Both the position numbers and the translations under genes were made by a program. A stretch of 64,000 nucleotides of DNA from Moorella sp. E308F. Lineage in GTDB: Bacteria > Bacillota > DSM-521 > Neomoorellales > Neomoorellaceae. Shown here piece after piece: positions 44,764 to 58,754 of the stretch. Every line of letters begins with the position of its first letter. The first letter of the stretch is position 1. The stretch lies in NCBI RefSeq assembly GCF_006538365.1, contig NZ_BJKN01000002.1, positions 1,130,411 through 1,194,410 on the forward strand. Reading direction: 5' to 3'. The notes beneath the pieces are model-generated. The model saw only the letters and a program-made list of their open reading frames with translations. It searched no databases and was not told where the DNA came from.

Positions 44764-47559
44764 CTAAGGGTTGAGAGCGCTATATTTAGCAATGATATCT
44801 TTTATATCACTAATATTGTAAGAGACATCAGCAAACCATTTCCCAAAACCGCCGTGGGTGTTAACTGCCATAACCCATTCTTTGAGCGCCTCCCTCTTGG
44901 CCCGGCTCTGCTCGTTATCCTGCCCCTTAACTTCCAGCGCCAGCATATTACCATTCTTAAACCGGATAAGATAATCGGGGCGGTACTTACGGACCACACC
45001 CTTATAGATATAAAGGATTTCAAAACCGAGATGATCATTTTTGACCCAGGCATCAATCTTGTCATCATTTTCAGGCCGATCAAATTCAAAGGCCTCGCTG
45101 GCTTCCCAGGTGCTGTCAAAGACGGCATGGCTAATGTGGGATTTCCTTGTTACCTCACAAGGTTTGCTGGTATACCAGGTAATCATGTCCCCTGTAGAGC
45201 GGATAGGTTTTTCGGTATCAAACACCAACTCCAGGGATACAGTATTTTCATATTTGATGGCATCAAATATGTGCTGGATAATCTTATTCATATTAAGGGT
45301 GATCAAAATCCGCCGACGCAGCTCATGCTGGTGGTAAAGAGTGGGGATCGAAATCTTGTCGGAGTTAATAAACTGCTCCACCAGCTTTATGAGCTGAATT
45401 AAGAGAAATTCCTTATTGCCATGCCAACCGGGTTTCATCTGGTCATAGATGTCCCTGGCCGTCTCAAAAATTATTTTCTGCAGGCGAAATTTTTTGCCCA
45501 GTTCTTCAAGGTCAATCTGGGTTATTTTACTCACATCGGGTTTACCATCAATTATTGGTGCCATTTCCGCCAGAGTAGGAGTTTCTTCAGGTTTAAGTTC
45601 TAATACTTGCAGCTTACTCCAGTCCAGGCTAAGTACAGGACGAAAGACACGTTCGATACGGATTATGTTGGGCCATTTAATTTCATACTGCCTTTTTTCT
45701 GGTACCGGTTCTATGCATGTTCGCGGTTTAGGAGGTGGCGGCGGCGTGCCGTCCCCACCTTCATGGGGCATAAAGGTAAAGGGGACCCCAAAAATGTTAA
45801 CGTATTCTGGTTCAAATAGTCCCGTCTTAGGGTCAACTTCGTAGGAAGTACGTCTTAAACCTCTGCCTACTACCTGCTCACACAGGAGCTGGCTAGAAAA
45901 GGCTCTAAGACCCATAATATGGGTTACAGTTTTGGCATCTCATCCCTCCGACAACATGGCAACAGCAATTACATTCTGGATTTTCTCACCCGGCTTCCCT
46001 ACCTTGCCTACCGTATCCACCATTTGCCTTAAAAGTTCAGCCTGGTCTTTCTTAGAAACCTTTTTTTGTTTTCCTTCATTTTCTTCTTCATCAAATAACA
46101 GTGATGCTGTATCCTCCAAATCAACTCTGCTCTCGGCTTCCTCTAATATCTTCGAATCAATACGCAGAGTCTTATCTGGGGCTTTCAATTCATCAATTTT
46201 GATTTTCCCCTGGTTAAAAGTATATTCAATACGCGCGGCAGTTTCCGTCCGATTACAAACGGTTATCATTACCGGTGGCGTTTTTATACCCGCCTGCTGC
46301 CACAGTTTATATGTCTCCAGCCAATCCAAACCAAGAAAATAATAAGCATTGGTGACCAGATCCGGGAGGGGTTCCTCCGGATTTGCTTTGCGATTTAAAT
46401 CATCCTTGACCTCATCGTCCATATAGATATGGTAAAAGCGAGATCTCAAATCTTTGGTTAACGTCCCATCATCCCTTATTACCACCCGGGGTGTCTTTAC
46501 TAACCCTGATTCGATTGCATCATTAAGGCCAAAATCAGAGACAATCCAACTAAAGAGTGCTTCTTCATAGTTCTTTTTCCCTGAAGGAGAGAAGGGAGTA
46601 GCGGAAAAGTCAAAGCAATAGAGGATGCCCCTTTTCCTGTGGATACGATCTAACCCTTCGACCCAGAGGGTAGCACGTTCTAGTTCATCTTTACTAACTC
46701 CTTTTATTTTTGATTCTGCCGGCACGCGCCAGGCATGATGGGCTTCATCATTAATAACGATAATATTCCTGGCGGTGGCCATATCGCCCAGAACCCGGCG
46801 GGTAAAGGCTTCATCGCTCTCCGGTCCTTTTTTTATTACTTTGGGACCAGCGTTCTCATCTATCGGCTTCATCATATGCCAGTTGATTATCATTATTTTC
46901 CCCTGGCGCAGTTTATCAAAAAGCGAAGATGGAACTATGTTAAATTCCTGGTAATAATTATGTGGATCTGCCGGATTGAGGACCTGGAGCCTGCTTTTTA
47001 CCGTCAGGCCAGGTGCAACTATCAAGACATTCTTTGAAAAACGTGTATCCTGGGGATAGGTTACTTTATTCAATACCTGCCAGGCGATCAGCATGGCCAT
47101 GACGATAGTTTTTCCTGAGCCCGTAGCCATCTTGGAACATAACCGGCGGAATTCCCCGCCATCGCCTGGTATCTCGATGCCCTGTTTACTGGCTGCAGGG
47201 GCTTCAATTAGCCAGATCAATGTTTCAATGGCCTCTAGCTGGCAGAAGAAAAATCGTTGGTGTTGTCGTTCTTCGGGATCGTGCCAGTGTTCTAAAAGCT
47301 TCCTGGTGATACCCGTTACCCCGGGATACCCTTGTTCCCGCCATTCATCTACCCTGGGACGGATTTTATTTACCAGAGGTAGTTCAATAAAGATACCCGG
47401 GTCATCAAAGGATTTAGAGGCGCGAGAAGCTACGATATAGCCTGCCGGCCGCCGTCCTTCTTTAAGGATAAATTCTCTTTTTTCGCGGTTGTAACTCCAA
47501 TGTCGGGTTGGTTTTTCATAAGGGCTGTTGATAATTAATTTGTCTATTGTAGCAGCCAT
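44764..47559 (-). pseudogene. res: Type III restriction enzyme Res subunit, interrupted by a nonsense codon
   Basis: A superfamily 2 helicase-endonuclease of about 930 codons. Motif I is MATGSGKTIVMAMLIAW, motif II INDEAHHAW, motif III DFSATPFS. The reading stops at TGA (45937-45939) in AMLSEG-stop-DAKTVTHIMGLRAF, exactly where relatives have Trp (SEGWDAKT); TGG to TGA is one base change. Motif VI (VVGRGLRR) and the C-terminal nuclease region (LALEVKGQDN) continue in the same frame downstream. Two separate products would be a helicase without motif VI and a nuclease fragment from 45915, so restriction is probably lost. Paired with mod upstream, with a one-base overlap. Confidence 0.9.
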
Positions 47560-49919
47560 TATTTCACCTCCAGGACCTTTAAGGATTCAATGCCCCGGTC
47601 ATCGATGATCTTGACTGCTACCCGCCGGTGTTTTCCTGGAGTAAAAGGAAGGGACACAGTACCGTGGTACTGTTCAATTAAATCTTCATCAATCTGGGCC
47701 TTCAAGTTCTTGGCCAACTTATTCCAACCATCCTTTTCGCCAGCCATTGGAAAAAATACTTGTTTAGGATAGAGGCTTCTCCCATCATAGTCAGTATCAA
47801 GCATCCACATAGCAATTTTTGAGGTGTCACCGGATTCAATTTGTCCAGTTTTAGGATTGTAATAGTCGAATCCGTGAACTTCTACAATATATTTTCCTTT
47901 TGTTTTACGTATTGAAATATCTGGTTGGCCAATTAACCAGAATGACTGATTGCTTGCGCGTTTCTTTTTTAAATCTGCTGTCAAAAGATCGGCATTCATC
48001 TGTACTTTAAGGAGCGTAACTCCAGGCCAGTTTAATTCGTCAATATCTTTGGCTGCTTCGGGGTCAAACTGGAAGGCTGCAAATACAATTAATTTCGGCC
48101 TGGGTACCAGCCTCTGTGCTTCTTCGATAGCCAGCTCCACCTGGCGCTGTTCCAGGGGCGCGTATTCAGGGCCAAAAGACACCACTACCCGTTTGGGTTC
48201 ATCTTCTTTAGTTTCCCCGTCGGCATGAAGCCACCTAGTGCCTGGCAGGGGTTCGAGCCTGGCAAATTCAATACACTGACCTCCTTTACCACGGATACCT
48301 GTTTTTAAAAGCTCAGCCCGCCATTCTGCCTGCCGCAGGGTCTCGCCAGAACGAGAAATGGAGGCGTCGACGATCCCTGCTTCGCGTTCGACATCTTCCA
48401 GGGATTTAACCACAGGCGCCGGCACCGCCTCGACAGTAAAGGGGCCGGTGATCCGTTTCTTCTTACGGTCTATGTAAGGTTGGTCATAAAGAATCTCCTC
48501 AGCCGGGGGTTCGTTATTGGCGATTGATTTCAAGGTGATATGGGGGACGGTCTTGTACTTAAACCCGCCGCTCACTCCCTCTTCCGAGTGAGCCAGCTCA
48601 TAGTAGTCAAAAACGGCAGTCATCAGGCGCTGTTTGGCCAGGGCAATAGCTACCCGAGAAGTGTCACAGGTGATCCAGCGCCTGCCCCATTGCTCAGCGA
48701 CATAAGCAGTAGTACCGCTACCGCAGGTAGGGTCAAATACCAAGTCGCCTGGATCGGTTGTCATGAGGAGGCAGCGTTCTATAACCTTTTTGTTTGTTTG
48801 AACTACAAAGACTATTTCGGATTCCCCCATAAGATCCTGCCATATATTAGATAAAGTAGAGTATGGAAAATCATCAAAAAAATGAATATAGCGCAAAGAA
48901 TTTTTTGTAGGAAGTAATCTTCCAGCCTTAGCCAACAACTTTAATCCTTCTAAATTTGTCCTCCAACCCGCATTTGGTCGTGGCAACCATTTTTTGCCAT
49001 TATACTCAAATGGTTGAGTTGTACTAATTGAACCGCTGCGAGAATGAAGGTCTGTACTTTTAAAAACCTTGGCACCTTCTGGTAAAGGTAAAATTCCAAG
49101 CAATTCTTCCTTCTTTAAAGTTCGATAGCTACCATCAGGTAGTAAAATTTGCCTAAACTCTGTTTCATCCAAGCCAATTCTTTTAGGAATAAAAAGCGGA
49201 TTGAATTTTATTTTAGTAATATCTTTAGCATACCATAAGATAAAATCACAAATTGTAGGTACAGTTGAACTCGTCTGGCTTCCAGATTTCCTAAAAATAA
49301 TAGTTGTGCAATAATTCCCTCTTCCAAACACCTCATCCATTAAACACCGAACCAAATGCACATTCTCGTCACCAATCTGCACAAAGCAGCTCCCGCTCTC
49401 TGTTAGTAATTCTTTGGCTAATAGTAATCGGTCGCGTAAGTAAGTCAGGTAAGAATGGATGCCTAATTCCCAGGTATCGCGGAAAGCACGGATCATTTCT
49501 GGTTCGGACGTTAAATCCTCGTCTTTTCCGTCTTTTACATCCCGTTTATTAATAAAAGGCTGGAAATTAGAACTATACTTGACCCCATAGGGCGGGTCAA
49601 TATATATCATCTGCACCTTGCCGGCCATGCCTTCTTTTTCTAATAGGGAATTCATTACTAAAAGAGAATCGCCGGCAATGAGACGGTTGCTCCAGTTCTG
49701 GTCGTGTTTATAAAAGTCTATCGCCTCTCGTAAAGGTAAAACATTCTCCGGTTTTTCAAATAAGCTAATCTGATGATATTCTTCTTTTTGATAGGTATCC
49801 TTACAAACATGGCGAATAATAGTCATAGGGTCAATTCGTTCGTGAACATGAAGGGAGACGGTATCTACCTCGAAACTTGTTCTTTCTGCTTTACCACTCC
49901 ATTGTAATTGGGGATCCAT
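47559..49919 (-). CDS. mod: Type III DNA methyltransferase Mod (downstream in-frame part)
   Basis: Adenine-specific beta-class methyltransferase of a type III system, 786 aa from the ATG at 49919. Motif IV is IYIDPPYGVKYSS near residue 105, and motif I is VFDPTCGSGTTAYVAEQWG near 395. The target recognition region lies between them and the C-terminal Res-interaction part follows. The true gene starts at 50065, with a frameshift in between. Reinitiation at 49919 would give a protein lacking about 45 residues but with all catalytic motifs, so some methylation could survive. Confidence 0.9.
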   Translation of the reverse strand: MDPQLQWSGKAERTSFEVDTVSLHVHERIDPMTIIRHVCKDTYQKEEYHQISLFEKPENVLPLREAIDFYKHDQNWSNRLIAGDSLLVMNSLLEKEGMAGKVQMIYIDPPYGVKYSSNFQPFINKRDVKDGKDEDLTSEPEMIRAFRDTWELGIHSYLTYLRDRLLLAKELLTESGSCFVQIGDENVHLVRCLMDEVFGRGNYCTTIIFRKSGSQTSSTVPTICDFILWYAKDITKIKFNPLFIPKRIGLDETEFRQILLPDGSYRTLKKEELLGILPLPEGAKVFKSTDLHSRSGSISTTQPFEYNGKKWLPRPNAGWRTNLEGLKLLAKAGRLLPTKNSLRYIHFFDDFPYSTLSNIWQDLMGESEIVFVVQTNKKVIERCLLMTTDPGDLVFDPTCGSGTTAYVAEQWGRRWITCDTSRVAIALAKQRLMTAVFDYYELAHSEEGVSGGFKYKTVPHITLKSIANNEPPAEEILYDQPYIDRKKKRITGPFTVEAVPAPVVKSLEDVEREAGIVDASISRSGETLRQAEWRAELLKTGIRGKGGQCIEFARLEPLPGTRWLHADGETKEDEPKRVVVSFGPEYAPLEQRQVELAIEEAQRLVPRPKLIVFAAFQFDPEAAKDIDELNWPGVTLLKVQMNADLLTADLKKKRASNQSFWLIGQPDISIRKTKGKYIVEVHGFDYYNPKTGQIESGDTSKIAMWMLDTDYDGRSLYPKQVFFPMAGEKDGWNKLAKNLKAQIDEDLIEQYHGTVSLPFTPGKHRRVAVKIIDDRGIESLKVLEVK

Positions 49920-53884: not shown

Positions 53885-55903
53885 TTACGCGGGTATCCAG
53901 AAGTATTCCTTTTCCATACCTTCTACTGTTGCCCTCTTGAATAAGACATTTCCCTCACCGTACAATCCATTTAAAAGCAATTCCATCAGCCGATCTTCGG
54001 GAACAAATGCATATGCATTGCCAGGGAACTTATCTTTTATCTCTTTAATAATGAAGAAAAGCTGTCCTTTGTAGATACCTTTTTTACCTTTGAGTTTTTC
54101 CGCCTTAACATATTTGATATTGTATCGCTGGGGATTATCAAGCCTTTCCTTTAGTTCGTCTTTCATTTTTTTGAAATCTGCATCCAGTTCTTCCGCCAAT
54201 ATCCCTGCTTTGGTGATAATACCACCTTCACTGGCATCTGGCTTGACATAGGCCCTGTATAATTCTTCAAAATCCCTTACCCGCACTGGTAGAACAAAAG
54301 GTTGGTTAGGAGCACTCCACATATAACAGTTACCTCGTATAGGCTCGGCTACCAAATGTGCCAGGATGTCATCGGAAAAATGGGAGTTGTACTTTCCTAA
54401 CGTGCCCGCATCTCCTTCAGAAAGCAGGTGAAAGCTGAACCAGTTGTCGGCCTGGCTTAGTATCTCAGGGGCAATTGAGCCAGGTTGCTGGGTAATGAGT
54501 ATTGCTCCTAAATCGTATTTGCGGCCCTCCTTAACCCACTCGACAAAGGGGCTGCTCTCATCAAGATATTTCCCCAGCACACTCTGGGCTTCTTCAATGA
54601 TAGCTATGGTTGGGATTATGGGATTTCCACCTGTAAAGTTTTCCTGATTATGCGAAAAGATATCTCCTAGAATTAATCCCGTAAGCATCTTGCCCACTGC
54701 TGAGCTTAAGAGACTGATATCAACAACAACTATCATTCCTTCCTTCAGGCCTTTCTTTATGCCTTCCAGAAGCTTGCTGTTGGGATCGTGCAAGGTGCGT
54801 ACCACGTTATACATATTACTGCGGGCAGCTGCTACTTCCGCTATATTGCTTGCACCCGAGGAATCATACCCTAAAATCCCTGCTATTTCATTGTCAGGAG
54901 CCTTCAATCCACTTTTATATATTAAATCAACCATTCTCGCCCATTCTATTTCATTCAAACCTTTCAGTTTGAGAACATTCTGGTTTTCCTGTTTTTCTGA
55001 GGGTAGGGCTATTCCAAGCACATCACGGGGTTTCAGCTGTCTAATATCAAGCTTTATTCCCCCTACCTTCCAGCTACCATAATAAGAATTCGGGGGCTTC
55101 CTGCTGGTATATACGATTATCTTATCTTTAAGGTGGGGGACATCGCAAAGACCCGGTCTGCCGTCTACAGTGTCCGGCCAAAAATATTCACCGTCAGCAT
55201 CAAATATCAAAGTTCCTACTTTTAACCCGGCTTTGGTCATGGGTTCTTCCTTGTAAAGCTCAGAAATTAAGTATTTTATCAGGTTGGACTTGCCATAGCC
55301 CGCCCGCGCAAATACCACCGTCCGCCTAGAAACAAGATTTCGGACATTGAATGTTACCGGAAGCTTCGGGTCGAGAGACCTGAACGCTGGATCCTTGTGA
55401 GTTTTTCCGGCCCCGCAGTAGACAAATTCTCCCAAAACATAGTCGCCAAGTTCTGTTTTTCCGCCACTCAGCTGGCATATTCTCCTCAATACTGATTCGC
55501 TGGGGTACGCTACCTTGGCTCCAAGGTGCGGAAGTCTACGCATGGACGGTACATATATTATGTTGTTATTTTCAATCCTTACTGCTCCCAGGAGCTTCAA
55601 CTGCACGCGGTACTTCAAGCGATGTACCATAAGGTCTTCGGGTATACTGTGCCCTCTCTGCTGGAGGGTATTGAAATAGTCCTCACCCTGCGGGGACACC
55701 AGGATTCCAGTAGGTACCAGGCGGGTAATCCTTCCTAAAGCCGCTTCCTCTTCCGTAGCCAGCTCTATAAGGACAAACTGGCCCAGTTGCGGGCGGTCAA
55801 GCATGCTGGCATCGTAAGGAGCCACTATCTCTGCATTGAACTCCATCCCTTTCTCGGTGAACCCCTTGAACGTCCCCATTATCTGCGAGCTGGCGAATAA
55901 CAC
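53885..55903 (-). CDS. HerA-like DNA-translocating ATPase of the DruA-NurA-HerA operon
   Basis: A 672-aa FtsK/HerA-type ATPase. Residues 1-150 include a HAS-barrel. The Walker A is FARAGYGKSNLIKYL, Walker B is IPTIAIIEEAQSVLG with the two acidic residues, and ILITQQPGSIAPEILSQ is the sensor segment typical of HerA. HerA hexamers pump DNA to the NurA nuclease. The GTG at 55903 is chosen because GGAGG lies 7 nt before it; it begins 2 nt past the NurA-like stop. Last gene of a three-gene operon with NurA-like and DruA-like genes. Confidence 0.88.
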   Translation of the reverse strand: MLFASSQIMGTFKGFTEKGMEFNAEIVAPYDASMLDRPQLGQFVLIELATEEEAALGRITRLVPTGILVSPQGEDYFNTLQQRGHSIPEDLMVHRLKYRVQLKLLGAVRIENNNIIYVPSMRRLPHLGAKVAYPSESVLRRICQLSGGKTELGDYVLGEFVYCGAGKTHKDPAFRSLDPKLPVTFNVRNLVSRRTVVFARAGYGKSNLIKYLISELYKEEPMTKAGLKVGTLIFDADGEYFWPDTVDGRPGLCDVPHLKDKIIVYTSRKPPNSYYGSWKVGGIKLDIRQLKPRDVLGIALPSEKQENQNVLKLKGLNEIEWARMVDLIYKSGLKAPDNEIAGILGYDSSGASNIAEVAAARSNMYNVVRTLHDPNSKLLEGIKKGLKEGMIVVVDISLLSSAVGKMLTGLILGDIFSHNQENFTGGNPIIPTIAIIEEAQSVLGKYLDESSPFVEWVKEGRKYDLGAILITQQPGSIAPEILSQADNWFSFHLLSEGDAGTLGKYNSHFSDDILAHLVAEPIRGNCYMWSAPNQPFVLPVRVRDFEELYRAYVKPDASEGGIITKAGILAEELDADFKKMKDELKERLDNPQRYNIKYVKAEKLKGKKGIYKGQLFFIIKEIKDKFPGNAYAFVPEDRLMELLLNGLYGEGNVLFKRATVEGMEKEYFWIPA

Positions 55904-55905
55904 TA

Positions 55906-57063
55906 TCATCCCTCCATATACCGCCACTTTTTGAGATCCTGGCTTAAATACCTGAAGCGGAGGAGCCTGTTATACTCGTCCGCATTCAAATTCTGGGTTA
56001 GTCCCTTGAAAACCATATCCTGAAGAATCTCTATTTCTATGTGACCAATCCTTGACCTATCATGGGCCTTCTGAATGCACATTGGGTAATCGGGAATAGG
56101 AAACCCGTACTGAGCATCGTATATTAATTGTCCCAGGATTTTAGGAGCCTGGTCACGCTGCCAGTCCGCTATATCGACAGGCCAAACTGGGTCCCCGGGT
56201 TTATCACCGAACTTTACCAAGTGCAGGCATCCCATGCTCTGGAATCGCGCGCGTTCCTCTTCAGTCTCAGCCGTATCGTAATTCAACAGCCAGGTCCTGT
56301 CGTAGTTGTAACAATCCCTTTCGATGTCCAGGGGAACTTCAACATAACAGGGGTATTTCCTGTGAAATACCCCTTCGAGTTCCAATGCTACCGCCAGCTT
56401 GCTCAAGACTGCGCTCTGCTTGGCTACCCCGACTAAGGAGACAGTCACGTTCCGTCTGGCGTGAACTTCTATCCCGGCTTTTATCTTTTCCCTTATCTTG
56501 GGAAAGATGTCTCGCCTGAAGGTCTTGGTCCGCAGCAGGCCATCCCTGACAAGTATCGTGTCCCCGCCCCACTGAAGGTGCGGGTTGCAGACCATTTCAT
56601 AGAGCACTGCCCACTCGACTATGTCACGGTAGGCTCGCAGGGCACTGGTGCTGTTCCCCCCTTGCCCCATGTTTTTAAGCAGGTATGAGAGCTCGCCTAA
56701 TTTCAATCCCAGATCAGAGCAGAGCCTCCTTAATGGCTCAATGCACTGCGGCCCTGGCTGAATTCTTTTTTCCAGCTCGTCCAGGGTCGAACTGCTAGCT
56801 ACCACATCAAGCACATACTCCTTTCCGCGCGAATCCACAACCCTTACAAGCTCGATCAATGCCGGGTCAAACATGATGCGGTTGTCTCCACCGTCTGCCG
56901 AGACGAAAGATACCGCGTTCACCGAATATGCCTTGAGCGGGCGCACGTTGTCTTTTAGCCGCCTAGCGTATTCCCTAAATTTCTCCAAAAGGTGACTGTC
57001 GGCCTGGTAAGCCTCGATTATCTTTTTCTGCAGGGCTTCCATGTCCAGGTTCGCTATTGTCAT
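55906..57063 (-). CDS. NurA-like nuclease of the DruA-NurA-HerA operon
   Basis: A 385-aa protein with the NurA layout: FVSADGGDNRIMFDP (first catalytic Asp), then DTILVRDGLLRTK (second acidic motif) and SLVGVAKQSAVLSKLA (the VGxxK segment). NurA is a Mn-dependent exonuclease that works with HerA in archaea and in bacterial defence systems. The start ATG overlaps the stop of the DruA-like gene by 4 nt, and AGGAG lies 10 nt upstream. It is upstream of HerA, the order expected for an interacting pair. Confidence 0.83.
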   Translation of the reverse strand: MTIANLDMEALQKKIIEAYQADSHLLEKFREYARRLKDNVRPLKAYSVNAVSFVSADGGDNRIMFDPALIELVRVVDSRGKEYVLDVVASSSTLDELEKRIQPGPQCIEPLRRLCSDLGLKLGELSYLLKNMGQGGNSTSALRAYRDIVEWAVLYEMVCNPHLQWGGDTILVRDGLLRTKTFRRDIFPKIREKIKAGIEVHARRNVTVSLVGVAKQSAVLSKLAVALELEGVFHRKYPCYVEVPLDIERDCYNYDRTWLLNYDTAETEEERARFQSMGCLHLVKFGDKPGDPVWPVDIADWQRDQAPKILGQLIYDAQYGFPIPDYPMCIQKAHDRSRIGHIEIEILQDMVFKGLTQNLNADEYNRLLRFRYLSQDLKKWRYMEG

Positions 57064-58241
57064 ACGCCCAACGCTCCTTTAAGAGACTGGTACTCTGCTC
57101 CCAGGAGGCTTAAAAATTGTTCCCGGTTCCACATAAGGTATTCAGGTTTTCTCTTGGACCTGGGGACGAGCCATCTATCCCTTGCAAGCTCGCCAACTTC
57201 TGTAGTTGACAGCAGGGTATCATACCGGGGAGAACTATATTTCCCTGACAGGAAATCATAGGCATTGTCCGCCACCCTGCAGGCGAATATCTGCCTCTTG
57301 ACACCATGTTTGAGGATATCACTATTAAACCCTATTTTCTCAATACACCTGCGGATAACACGGAACCTCCAGTTTGGCCCTTTCCCGAACGAATAACTCT
57401 TCACGTAGTCATCCCCAGTGCTTTCCAGATACTTACACATCAAATCGAATATGCTATCTGGAATGTGAAAATGGCCCCATCCTTCGGTGTACCCGATAGG
57501 TTCGAAGTATACTTGATTATTAAGTTTTAGCCTATTATAGATCGATGACCTGCCGAGTGCTGAAGTGGTCGTGACCAGTACTAACTGAGCATTTTTGTTC
57601 TGCTTTGAAATAATCCCTGAGCGCTCACTGTAACGGCGCGAGAAAATCTCTACTACTTCTCGCGTTCTTACTAGGCAGGCAACTAATTTACCGCCAAGTA
57701 TGTAACTGTAAGGCGGGACGGCTCCTAGCACATAGGCATCCATCACGTTGACTAGGCGCTCTTTTCTATCCTGAGCGGTCCAGCCAATCAGGTTATCTCT
57801 CGCTTTAAGGTTAAATACTGGGTCACCCAAAGCAATAATCCCCATGAGCTTCCCGTTGTGCTCATCCCATACTAGAAAGCGCATCCTGCGCCCGTAGCCA
57901 TTTGAAACCGGGACGCTCCACGAAAGGGTAGCTAATTTGAAAAGATCCCTTCGCCACCCTTCTCCCTCGACCAGTTCTAGGCTAGGCGATATCTTTTCCG
58001 GTTCGACCTTGCGCCCGTCAGCAAAATATTTAGACAACCTAACCCATGCCCTAGCAACAAAATCGCTCTGTTTTTTTAATACTTCCTCTCTCTGCGCATA
58101 GTGCAAACCCCGCAGGGCTTCCTTGCTCTGTCCTGGCGGGATCAGGTTCCCATTCTTATCTGTGGAAAAACCCAGTTTTTGTAAGTGAGAATGGAGTTCG
58201 GAAAGAATACGAAATTCCAACAAAGAAACCGTCCTGGCCAT
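57060..58241 (-). CDS. DUF4338 (Druantia DruA-like) protein
   Basis: A 393-aa protein of the DUF4338 family, of which DruA of the Druantia antiphage system is the best-known member. Family-like segments: IALGDPVFNLKARDNLIGW, NVMDAYVLGAVPPYSYILGG and KLVACLVRTREV. The middle part VTTTSALGRSSIYNRLKL is also typical. No other Druantia gene (the large helicase DruE) is present; its partners here are NurA- and HerA-like. GGTGAGGTAGGA precedes the ATG. First gene of the operon. Confidence 0.87.
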   Translation of the reverse strand: MARTVSLLEFRILSELHSHLQKLGFSTDKNGNLIPPGQSKEALRGLHYAQREEVLKKQSDFVARAWVRLSKYFADGRKVEPEKISPSLELVEGEGWRRDLFKLATLSWSVPVSNGYGRRMRFLVWDEHNGKLMGIIALGDPVFNLKARDNLIGWTAQDRKERLVNVMDAYVLGAVPPYSYILGGKLVACLVRTREVVEIFSRRYSERSGIISKQNKNAQLVLVTTTSALGRSSIYNRLKLNNQVYFEPIGYTEGWGHFHIPDSIFDLMCKYLESTGDDYVKSYSFGKGPNWRFRVIRRCIEKIGFNSDILKHGVKRQIFACRVADNAYDFLSGKYSSPRYDTLLSTTEVGELARDRWLVPRSKRKPEYLMWNREQFLSLLGAEYQSLKGALGV

Positions 58242-58295: not shown

Positions 58296-58487
58296 TTAAT
58301 AATTTCCACCTTGTAGTGCCCTGTTCGCCACCAGATCGAAAGGCATACCGACATCTATGAGATTCTTACAGGACGTGCACCGCAGCGTATAGGGGCAAAC
58401 GTCTTTCAGTTTCGCTCTGAAAGCGTACTCAGTAACTATCTTGTAAACAGACCAGGTCGATAAAGGTTTGCCGTACCTGATACACAA
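58296..58487 (-). pseudogene. Tyrosine integrase remnant
   Basis: A 63-codon fragment resembling the catalytic domain of phage-type integrases. PLSTWSVYKIVTEYAFRA and VCPYTLRCTSCKNLIDVG correspond to the PLS...V...AG and TPHxLRHTF segments, but the essential RHxF reads RCTS and the rest is missing. It lies 54 bp from the DruA-like gene start and marks an old mobile element border. Confidence 0.6.
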
Positions 58488-58562
58488 GGACCCAACTGAA
58501 AACCCAAAAAATCCTTTTCATGAGGACATATTCTCCAGAAAATGATAATTTCCTTTTTGTAA

Positions 58563-58754
58563 GGGATATTTATCCAGGGTGATGACGCTCCCCAAGACTA
58601 CCGCAAGCGGCTACGCACTGCCATCGGTGTCGAGAGGCTCAATCAGGAAATTCGCCGGTGTGTGGGTAGTAATCCGCTTTTTCCCAACGAAGAGTCAGCA
58701 TTCCAGTTGATCGGGGCGCTATACATCGCTATTTCGATATGGCGGCAAACTTAG
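58563..58754 (+). pseudogene. IS256-family transposase, 3' remnant
   Basis: About 60 codons on the plus strand read RKRLRTAIGVERLNQEIRR, NPLFPNEESAFQLIGAL and end IWRQT. The xxIERLNxEIRRR...FPNExSAxRLIGAL block is the C-terminus of IS256/Mutator transposases. No start or catalytic domain is present. Confidence 0.75.

Follow-up and report, generated by a model that had tools for sequence, protein, structure and literature searches.

In the 64,000-nucleotide stretch of Moorella sp. E308F DNA analysed here (hereafter the window), three coupled genes on the minus strand encode a DruA protein (DUF4338), a NurA-like nuclease and a HerA ATPase (Table 1). Computational analysis showed that the trio recurs in other genomes, that DruA has conserved motifs and a predicted GNAT fold, and that the partner of HerA-NurA can be swapped. 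We propose, with a confidence just short of even, that DruA marks host DNA as self with an acyl-type group and that HerA-NurA degrades unmarked DNA, the whole amounting to a defence of the restriction-modification (R-M) kind.

Table 1. The trio and its immediate flanks in the window.
Feature	Positions	Strand	Evidence
DruA (DUF4338, PF14236), 393 aa	57060..58241	-	PF14236 E 1e-92; PADLOC DruA1 573 bits
NurA-like nuclease, 385 aa	55906..57063	-	TdpB (8wet_G) profile match E 1.2e-11; invariant residues
HerA-like hexameric-type ATPase/translocase, 680 aa as listed	53885..55927	-	PF01935 E 1.3e-23
Tyrosine-recombinase (integrase) C-terminal remnant, just upstream of DruA	58296..58487	-	PF00589 E 0.0027
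IS256-type transposase remnant (QDYRKRLRTAIGVERLNQEIRRCVGSNPLFPNEES)	about 58560..58740	+	motif recognised by eye

The initial annotation of this DNA described three same-strand genes joined by a 4-nt overlap and a 2-nt gap, flanked by an integrase remnant and an IS256 remnant and set among restriction genes, and our analysis bears this out. The NurA and DruA reading frames share 4 nt. HerA may start at a GTG at 55903, for which the 2-nt gap to NurA holds, or at an ATG at 55909, which would give a 4-nt overlap instead. Both flanking remnants are present, and the defence-type genes near the trio comprise a type III methyltransferase with a Res subunit, a gene for an HNH protein that resembles type IV restriction endonucleases, and PDC-S11. 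The type III restriction-modification genes occupy 44764-49919 of the window; past the methyltransferase lie two ORFs, one with a ResIII match (45940-47559) and one with no Pfam match (44764-45915), which are possibly the halves of a broken Res gene.

Recurrence was examined in a sample of 398 genomes of the host phylum. Eleven full-length DruA genes were counted, a figure that leaves out the truncated DUF4338 matches (model positions mostly ~40-226, many of L039-L058). DruA adjoins NurA, or NurA and HerA, in 7 of the 11 (G000, G130, G360, G226, G264, G115 and G295, the contig of the last ending just inside NurA), one lies with DruE (G330, L080), and three lie with neither NurA-HerA nor DruE. 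The observed adjacency is far above that expected by chance, about 9×10−5 per gene, a rough, order-of-magnitude figure which includes the window itself and the NurA families found beside DruA. Five more trios were found beyond the sample, at L012, L013 and L086 (G398) and on two IMG/VR viral contigs (L061 and L063). The co-occurrence proposed as a check by the initial annotation was thus found, in the same order, DruA-NurA-HerA, and also as NurA-HerA-DruA (L079 and L022). Because the pairing recurs across genomes, we regard the trio as a system. In the G226 trio (L084, 6296-7445), NurA is read in two overlapping frames, the frameshift denoting either a pseudogene or an assembly error. Among 338 genomes of the phylum of G405, DruA was matched in G405 alone at a threshold of E 1e-30.

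The truncated DUF4338 matches are mostly proteins of about 300 aa, several of them adjoining transposase genes. Such proteins are encoded directly upstream of assorted transposase-like genes at L040, L043, L044, L047, L049, L050 and L053, which suggests an accessory role in transposons for the short forms.

The PADLOC DruA1 model covers nearly the full length of the window DruA. A PDB sequence search with DruA returned nothing notable, and no DNA-recognition domain was found in the protein. Two AlphaFold2 models were built, of the window DruA and of a phage-context DruA (L060), each with a pLDDT of 82.7; they share alignment rows and are not fully independent. With VIA-align, phage Mu Mom (8bv8) came first for both, at Z 9.1, 4.4 Å over 184 residues for the window protein (next GNATs 8.3) and at Z 10.1, 4.3 Å over 181 residues for the L060 protein (next GNATs 9.4). 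Mom is favoured but formally tied with other GNATs, since its lead in Z is below 1. All 50 rows listed in both runs are GNAT-type acyltransferases or appear to contain one. Foldseek also matched the DruA model to GNATs, weakly, and TacT-type tRNA-acetylating toxins were among these matches. Giant-virus proteins from BFVD (Faunusvirus, Yasminevirus and Dasosvirus) match the DruA fold strongly, with Foldseek E-values down to 2e-18. DruA is therefore predicted to be a GNAT-fold acyltransferase, whose GNAT domain spans about residues 80-334, and DUF4338 has independently been termed a GNAT-like domain in DndF fusions (PMC10853773).

Two conserved segments fall at suggestive places in this predicted domain. 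Residues 166-190, a predicted strand-loop-helix (beta4-loop-alpha3), carry the motif GA[VIL]PPYxxLLxGKLVA at the position of the GNAT CoA loop. After the strand at 222-225 (beta5-alpha4) comes SALGRSS[IVL]YNR, in which Y235-N236 is invariant. We read both segments as putative GNAT motifs, which would serve acyl-CoA binding and acyl transfer. Both are kept in DruA proteins whether the partner is HerA-NurA, DruE or neither of these.

Evidence on what DruA may act upon came in part from the genes found in its stead beside sister HerA-NurA pairs, and from DruA genes that occur without such a pair. Four sister NurA-HerA operons (L018-L021) have an adjoining DNA methyltransferase, checked directly in L018-L020 and assigned in L021 by similarity to L019; it lies upstream of NurA in L018 and L020 and downstream of HerA in L019 and L021. 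The partner gene beside HerA-NurA is thus exchangeable between DruA and a methyltransferase. In L018 (7124-17584) the HerA-NurA-methyltransferase set directly adjoins DISARM-type DrmA and DrmB. At L016 (6341-14036), HerA-NurA lies beside a 203-aa gene and a gene for a DpdF-like helicase of 1216 aa that carries a zinc ribbon of the topoisomerase type. Conversely, phage-context DruA genes were found with no NurA-HerA nearby in L060, L062, L064 and L072, as is expected for a protective modifier. The L060 gene adjoins one for a dATP/dGTP diphosphohydrolase, the L064 gene is near a Zot gene on a locus cut by the contig end, and in Pelagibacter phage Mosig DruA/DUF4338 lies near 2OG-Fe(II) oxygenase genes.

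The predicted GNAT fold, the sister methyltransferases and the lone phage DruA genes together suggest an enzymatic role for DruA, of which the marking of self DNA would be the simplest form. Modification of DNA as a self-mark is favoured by the same methyltransferases and phage genes, and by the finding that, among solved structures, TdpA and TdpB of a phosphorothioate-based system are nearest to HerA and NurA. In the mechanism that we propose, DruA would transfer an acyl-type group to bases of host DNA, HerA would assemble into a hexameric motor with NurA, and the two would thread and degrade double-stranded DNA lacking the mark, as TdpAB do with non-phosphorothioated DNA. The modifier would be swappable, a DNA methyltransferase taking the place of DruA in related HerA-NurA operons. 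DruA would thus act on DNA, its mark would protect self and the trio would have an anti-phage role. More tentatively still, DruA may represent a new, widespread class of DNA-base acyltransferases with Mom-type chemistry, and the trio an R-M system that marks self with an acylated base. Against the self-mark stand the lack of sequence likeness between DruA and Mom, the tie in Mom Z scores, the search for a DNA-recognition domain that found none, and HerA-NurA pairs with no adjoining DruA (L014 and L015). The reading of the DndF-fused GNAT domain in PMC10853773, as a self-targeting effector, also counts against it. The proposal gives a concrete, testable role to DruA/DUF4338, a family named after Druantia to which the papers searched assign no function.

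In the initial annotation DUF4338 was a sensor or DNA modifier by which HerA-NurA would be loaded onto the DNA of an invader. The modifier part of this suggestion gains from the predicted GNAT fold, the sister methyltransferases and the lone phage DruA, while the sensor part does not; the same three observations point to a self-marking enzyme rather than to loading on the invader. We consider it unlikely that DruA modifies or binds invading DNA and so tags it, or loads it, for HerA-NurA, which would be the loading model in enzymatic form. Tight translational coupling of the trio genes would suit such a scheme, and a step that tags DNA for a helicase would fit the presence of DruA with the DruE helicase in Druantia. 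However, a lone DruA on phage-context contigs would then mean self-harm, and the methyltransferases of the sister operons are usually self-marking enzymes.

Somewhat less probable is a catalytically idle DruA, serving as a GNAT-fold sensor or scaffold of the HerA-NurA complex. Large regulated complexes are formed by Sir2-HerA and HerA-DUF4297, as cited in PMC12977600, but conservation of the segments around the predicted CoA loop and Y235 whatever the partner of DruA fits catalysis better than partner binding. About as probable is an abortive-infection role, in which DruA would be a GNAT effector or toxin that, upon infection, acylates proteins or tRNA of host or phage, and HerA-NurA its sensor or co-effector. 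A role of this class has been proposed in PMC10853773 for the DndF-fused GNAT domain, which is annotated DUF4338, and the TacT-type toxins among the Foldseek matches agree with it. HerA-NurA, however, already supplies a nuclease effector, the DNA inspected around DruA in L060 and L062 has no NurA-HerA and no obvious partner that would neutralise DruA, and sister HerA-NurA pairs adjoin methyltransferases, not toxins.

The NurA-like and HerA proteins keep the acidic motifs and intact Walker boxes that the initial annotation had noted, and profiles and alignment agree with its naming of all three proteins. Among 12 aligned NurA relatives D57, D174, K215, E230 and H334 do not vary, and 11 of the 12 have E150; the catalytic Asp/Glu/Asp/His motifs of NurA correspond to D57, E150, D174 and H334. 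The window NurA has no Pfam match, PF09376 included, at a threshold of E 0.05; its relatives in L026, L022, L029 and L079 exceed the PF09376 NurA cut-off. In the PDB it matches TdpB and, weakly, NURA 2ygk, and no others. In HerA both Walker boxes are intact, A as RAGYGKSN and B as IIEEAQS, and the HerA profile is closest, among solved structures, to TdpA. It scores 52.6 bits against the NCBIfam antiphage-HerA cut-off of 800 bits. Plasmid records gave no match to NurA or HerA, nor did phage GenBank records to NurA; a search of viral contigs with the NurA alignment found nothing, and the viral trios L061 and L063 came from scans anchored on DruA. The HerA-NurA of T. kodakarensis degrades both DNA strands exonucleolytically (PMC12977600), which fits the effector step proposed here.

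NurA of the window type is present in 11 of the 398 genomes and absent from the seven congeners in the sample. In that sample DruA lies alongside all five NurA genes of the L026 type with more than 35% identity; a NurA relative of 32% identity in G082 belongs to a NurA-HerA pair with no DruA. Pairs of the same clade have no adjoining DruA in L015, and none within 517 bp upstream in L014. These distributions bear on the idea that HerA-NurA is a DNA-repair machine for end resection, with DruA an incidental neighbour. HerA-NurA has long been studied as an end-resection complex (PMC12977600) and the G082 pair would be in keeping with this; against it are the patchy spread of NurA, its two copies on viral contigs, the methyltransferase or DruA found beside most pairs, and TdpAB as the closest solved relatives. 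We consider the repair explanation very unlikely.

In the DruA tree, well-supported branches force the trio label to change five times or more. The HerA proteins are spread over widely separated lineages; the branches are long, which leaves the details of the topology uncertain. The pairing has involved three or more HerA-NurA lineages that are very divergent. DruA and HerA-NurA have therefore paired repeatedly. The window DruA itself clusters with the Druantia type I DruA (support 95/94) at about 50% identity. This would suit a decayed Druantia type I locus, the DruA of which had been captured beside a HerA-NurA defence that works independently of it; such a locus is the least probable of the explanations, given the recurrence of the pairing in distant HerA-NurA lineages and in both gene orders, and the absence of DruE from the genome and of DruB and DruC matches from the window.

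The acyl self-mark reading is best set against the systems that the trio resembles. The closest is TdpABC, a phosphorothioate-based antiphage system of Thermus (TdpA/TdpB structures 8wet, 8wfd and 8y1k). TdpA and TdpB are the closest solved relatives of HerA (E 4.3e-46) and NurA (E 1.2e-11), and here too the pair is adjacent. TdpABC combines a translocase-nuclease pair with one modification gene, a parallel that the initial annotation did not draw; TdpAB degrade DNA lacking phosphorothioate, and TdpC makes phosphorothioate via an adenylated intermediate. The third gene here, in contrast, is DruA/DUF4338 with a predicted GNAT fold, from which TdpC is set apart by its description. The annotated neighbours of the window trio include no sulfur-transfer gene and no PAPS-reductase-type domain, the family to which TdpC presumably belongs. 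Plasmid records searched with a TdpB fragment gave no match.

The initial annotation had also called for comparison with Druantia and with HerA system models, and had put the trio forward as a candidate undescribed system. Beside the DruA1 match, HerA falls far below the antiphage-HerA cut-off, and the resemblance to Druantia type I (DruABCDE) lies in a DruA of the same clade. Two DruE queries found no match in the host genome, G000 (positive control G330, E 3.5e-242), and Nitrosococcus DruB and DruC queries gave no tblastn match in the window at E 0.1. Druantia was rejected for the window trio on these grounds; the effector of the trio is HerA-NurA. If the acyl self-mark is real, DruA would also be what modifies DNA in Druantia type I, whose DruA is given no biochemical role in the papers searched. 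Papers on Druantia III and on YprA say nothing of what DruA does. PADLOC 2.0 has no model of the trio and none that matches the window NurA, and in the open-access literature searched no paper joins DUF4338 or DruA with NurA-HerA, so that the claim of an undescribed system holds for these sources.

Phage Mu Mom is the top solved fold for DruA in both models, tied with other GNATs. Kinship by sequence was rejected (hhalign probability 0.1%, with a shallow Mom alignment), and DruA has no match to PF25680, the Mom family. Mom shields the DNA of the phage and, in Mu, is not known to work with a nuclease. Mom-family GNATs acylate adenine N6 and are fused to restriction-endonuclease domains in jumbo phages (PMC7824862). 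If DruA does acylate DNA, a base modification best known from phage self-protection would serve as a bacterial self-mark as well.

In DndFGH with a DUF4338-fused DndF (PMC10853773), too, a DUF4338/GNAT domain and a HerA/FtsK-type motor occur together; unlike in the window trio, DndF is a large ATPase fusion, DndH bears a restriction endonuclease and there is no NurA. A DndFGH-like locus occurs in the genus of the window host (L087, 318-9526), with DUF4338 in a 1237-aa protein and an FtsK tail on a 1345-aa protein. HerA-Sir2, HerA-DUF4297 and NurA-HerA likewise unite a HerA ATPase with a nuclease or effector, but as described they have no modification-type gene, unlike the window trio. We conclude that the trio is possibly a new variant of HerA-nuclease system, with a modification-type partner and possibly new chemistry. 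HerA-NurA systems would thereby gain a DruA-bearing branch, beside the methyltransferase-bearing ones and the phosphorothioate-based TdpABC.
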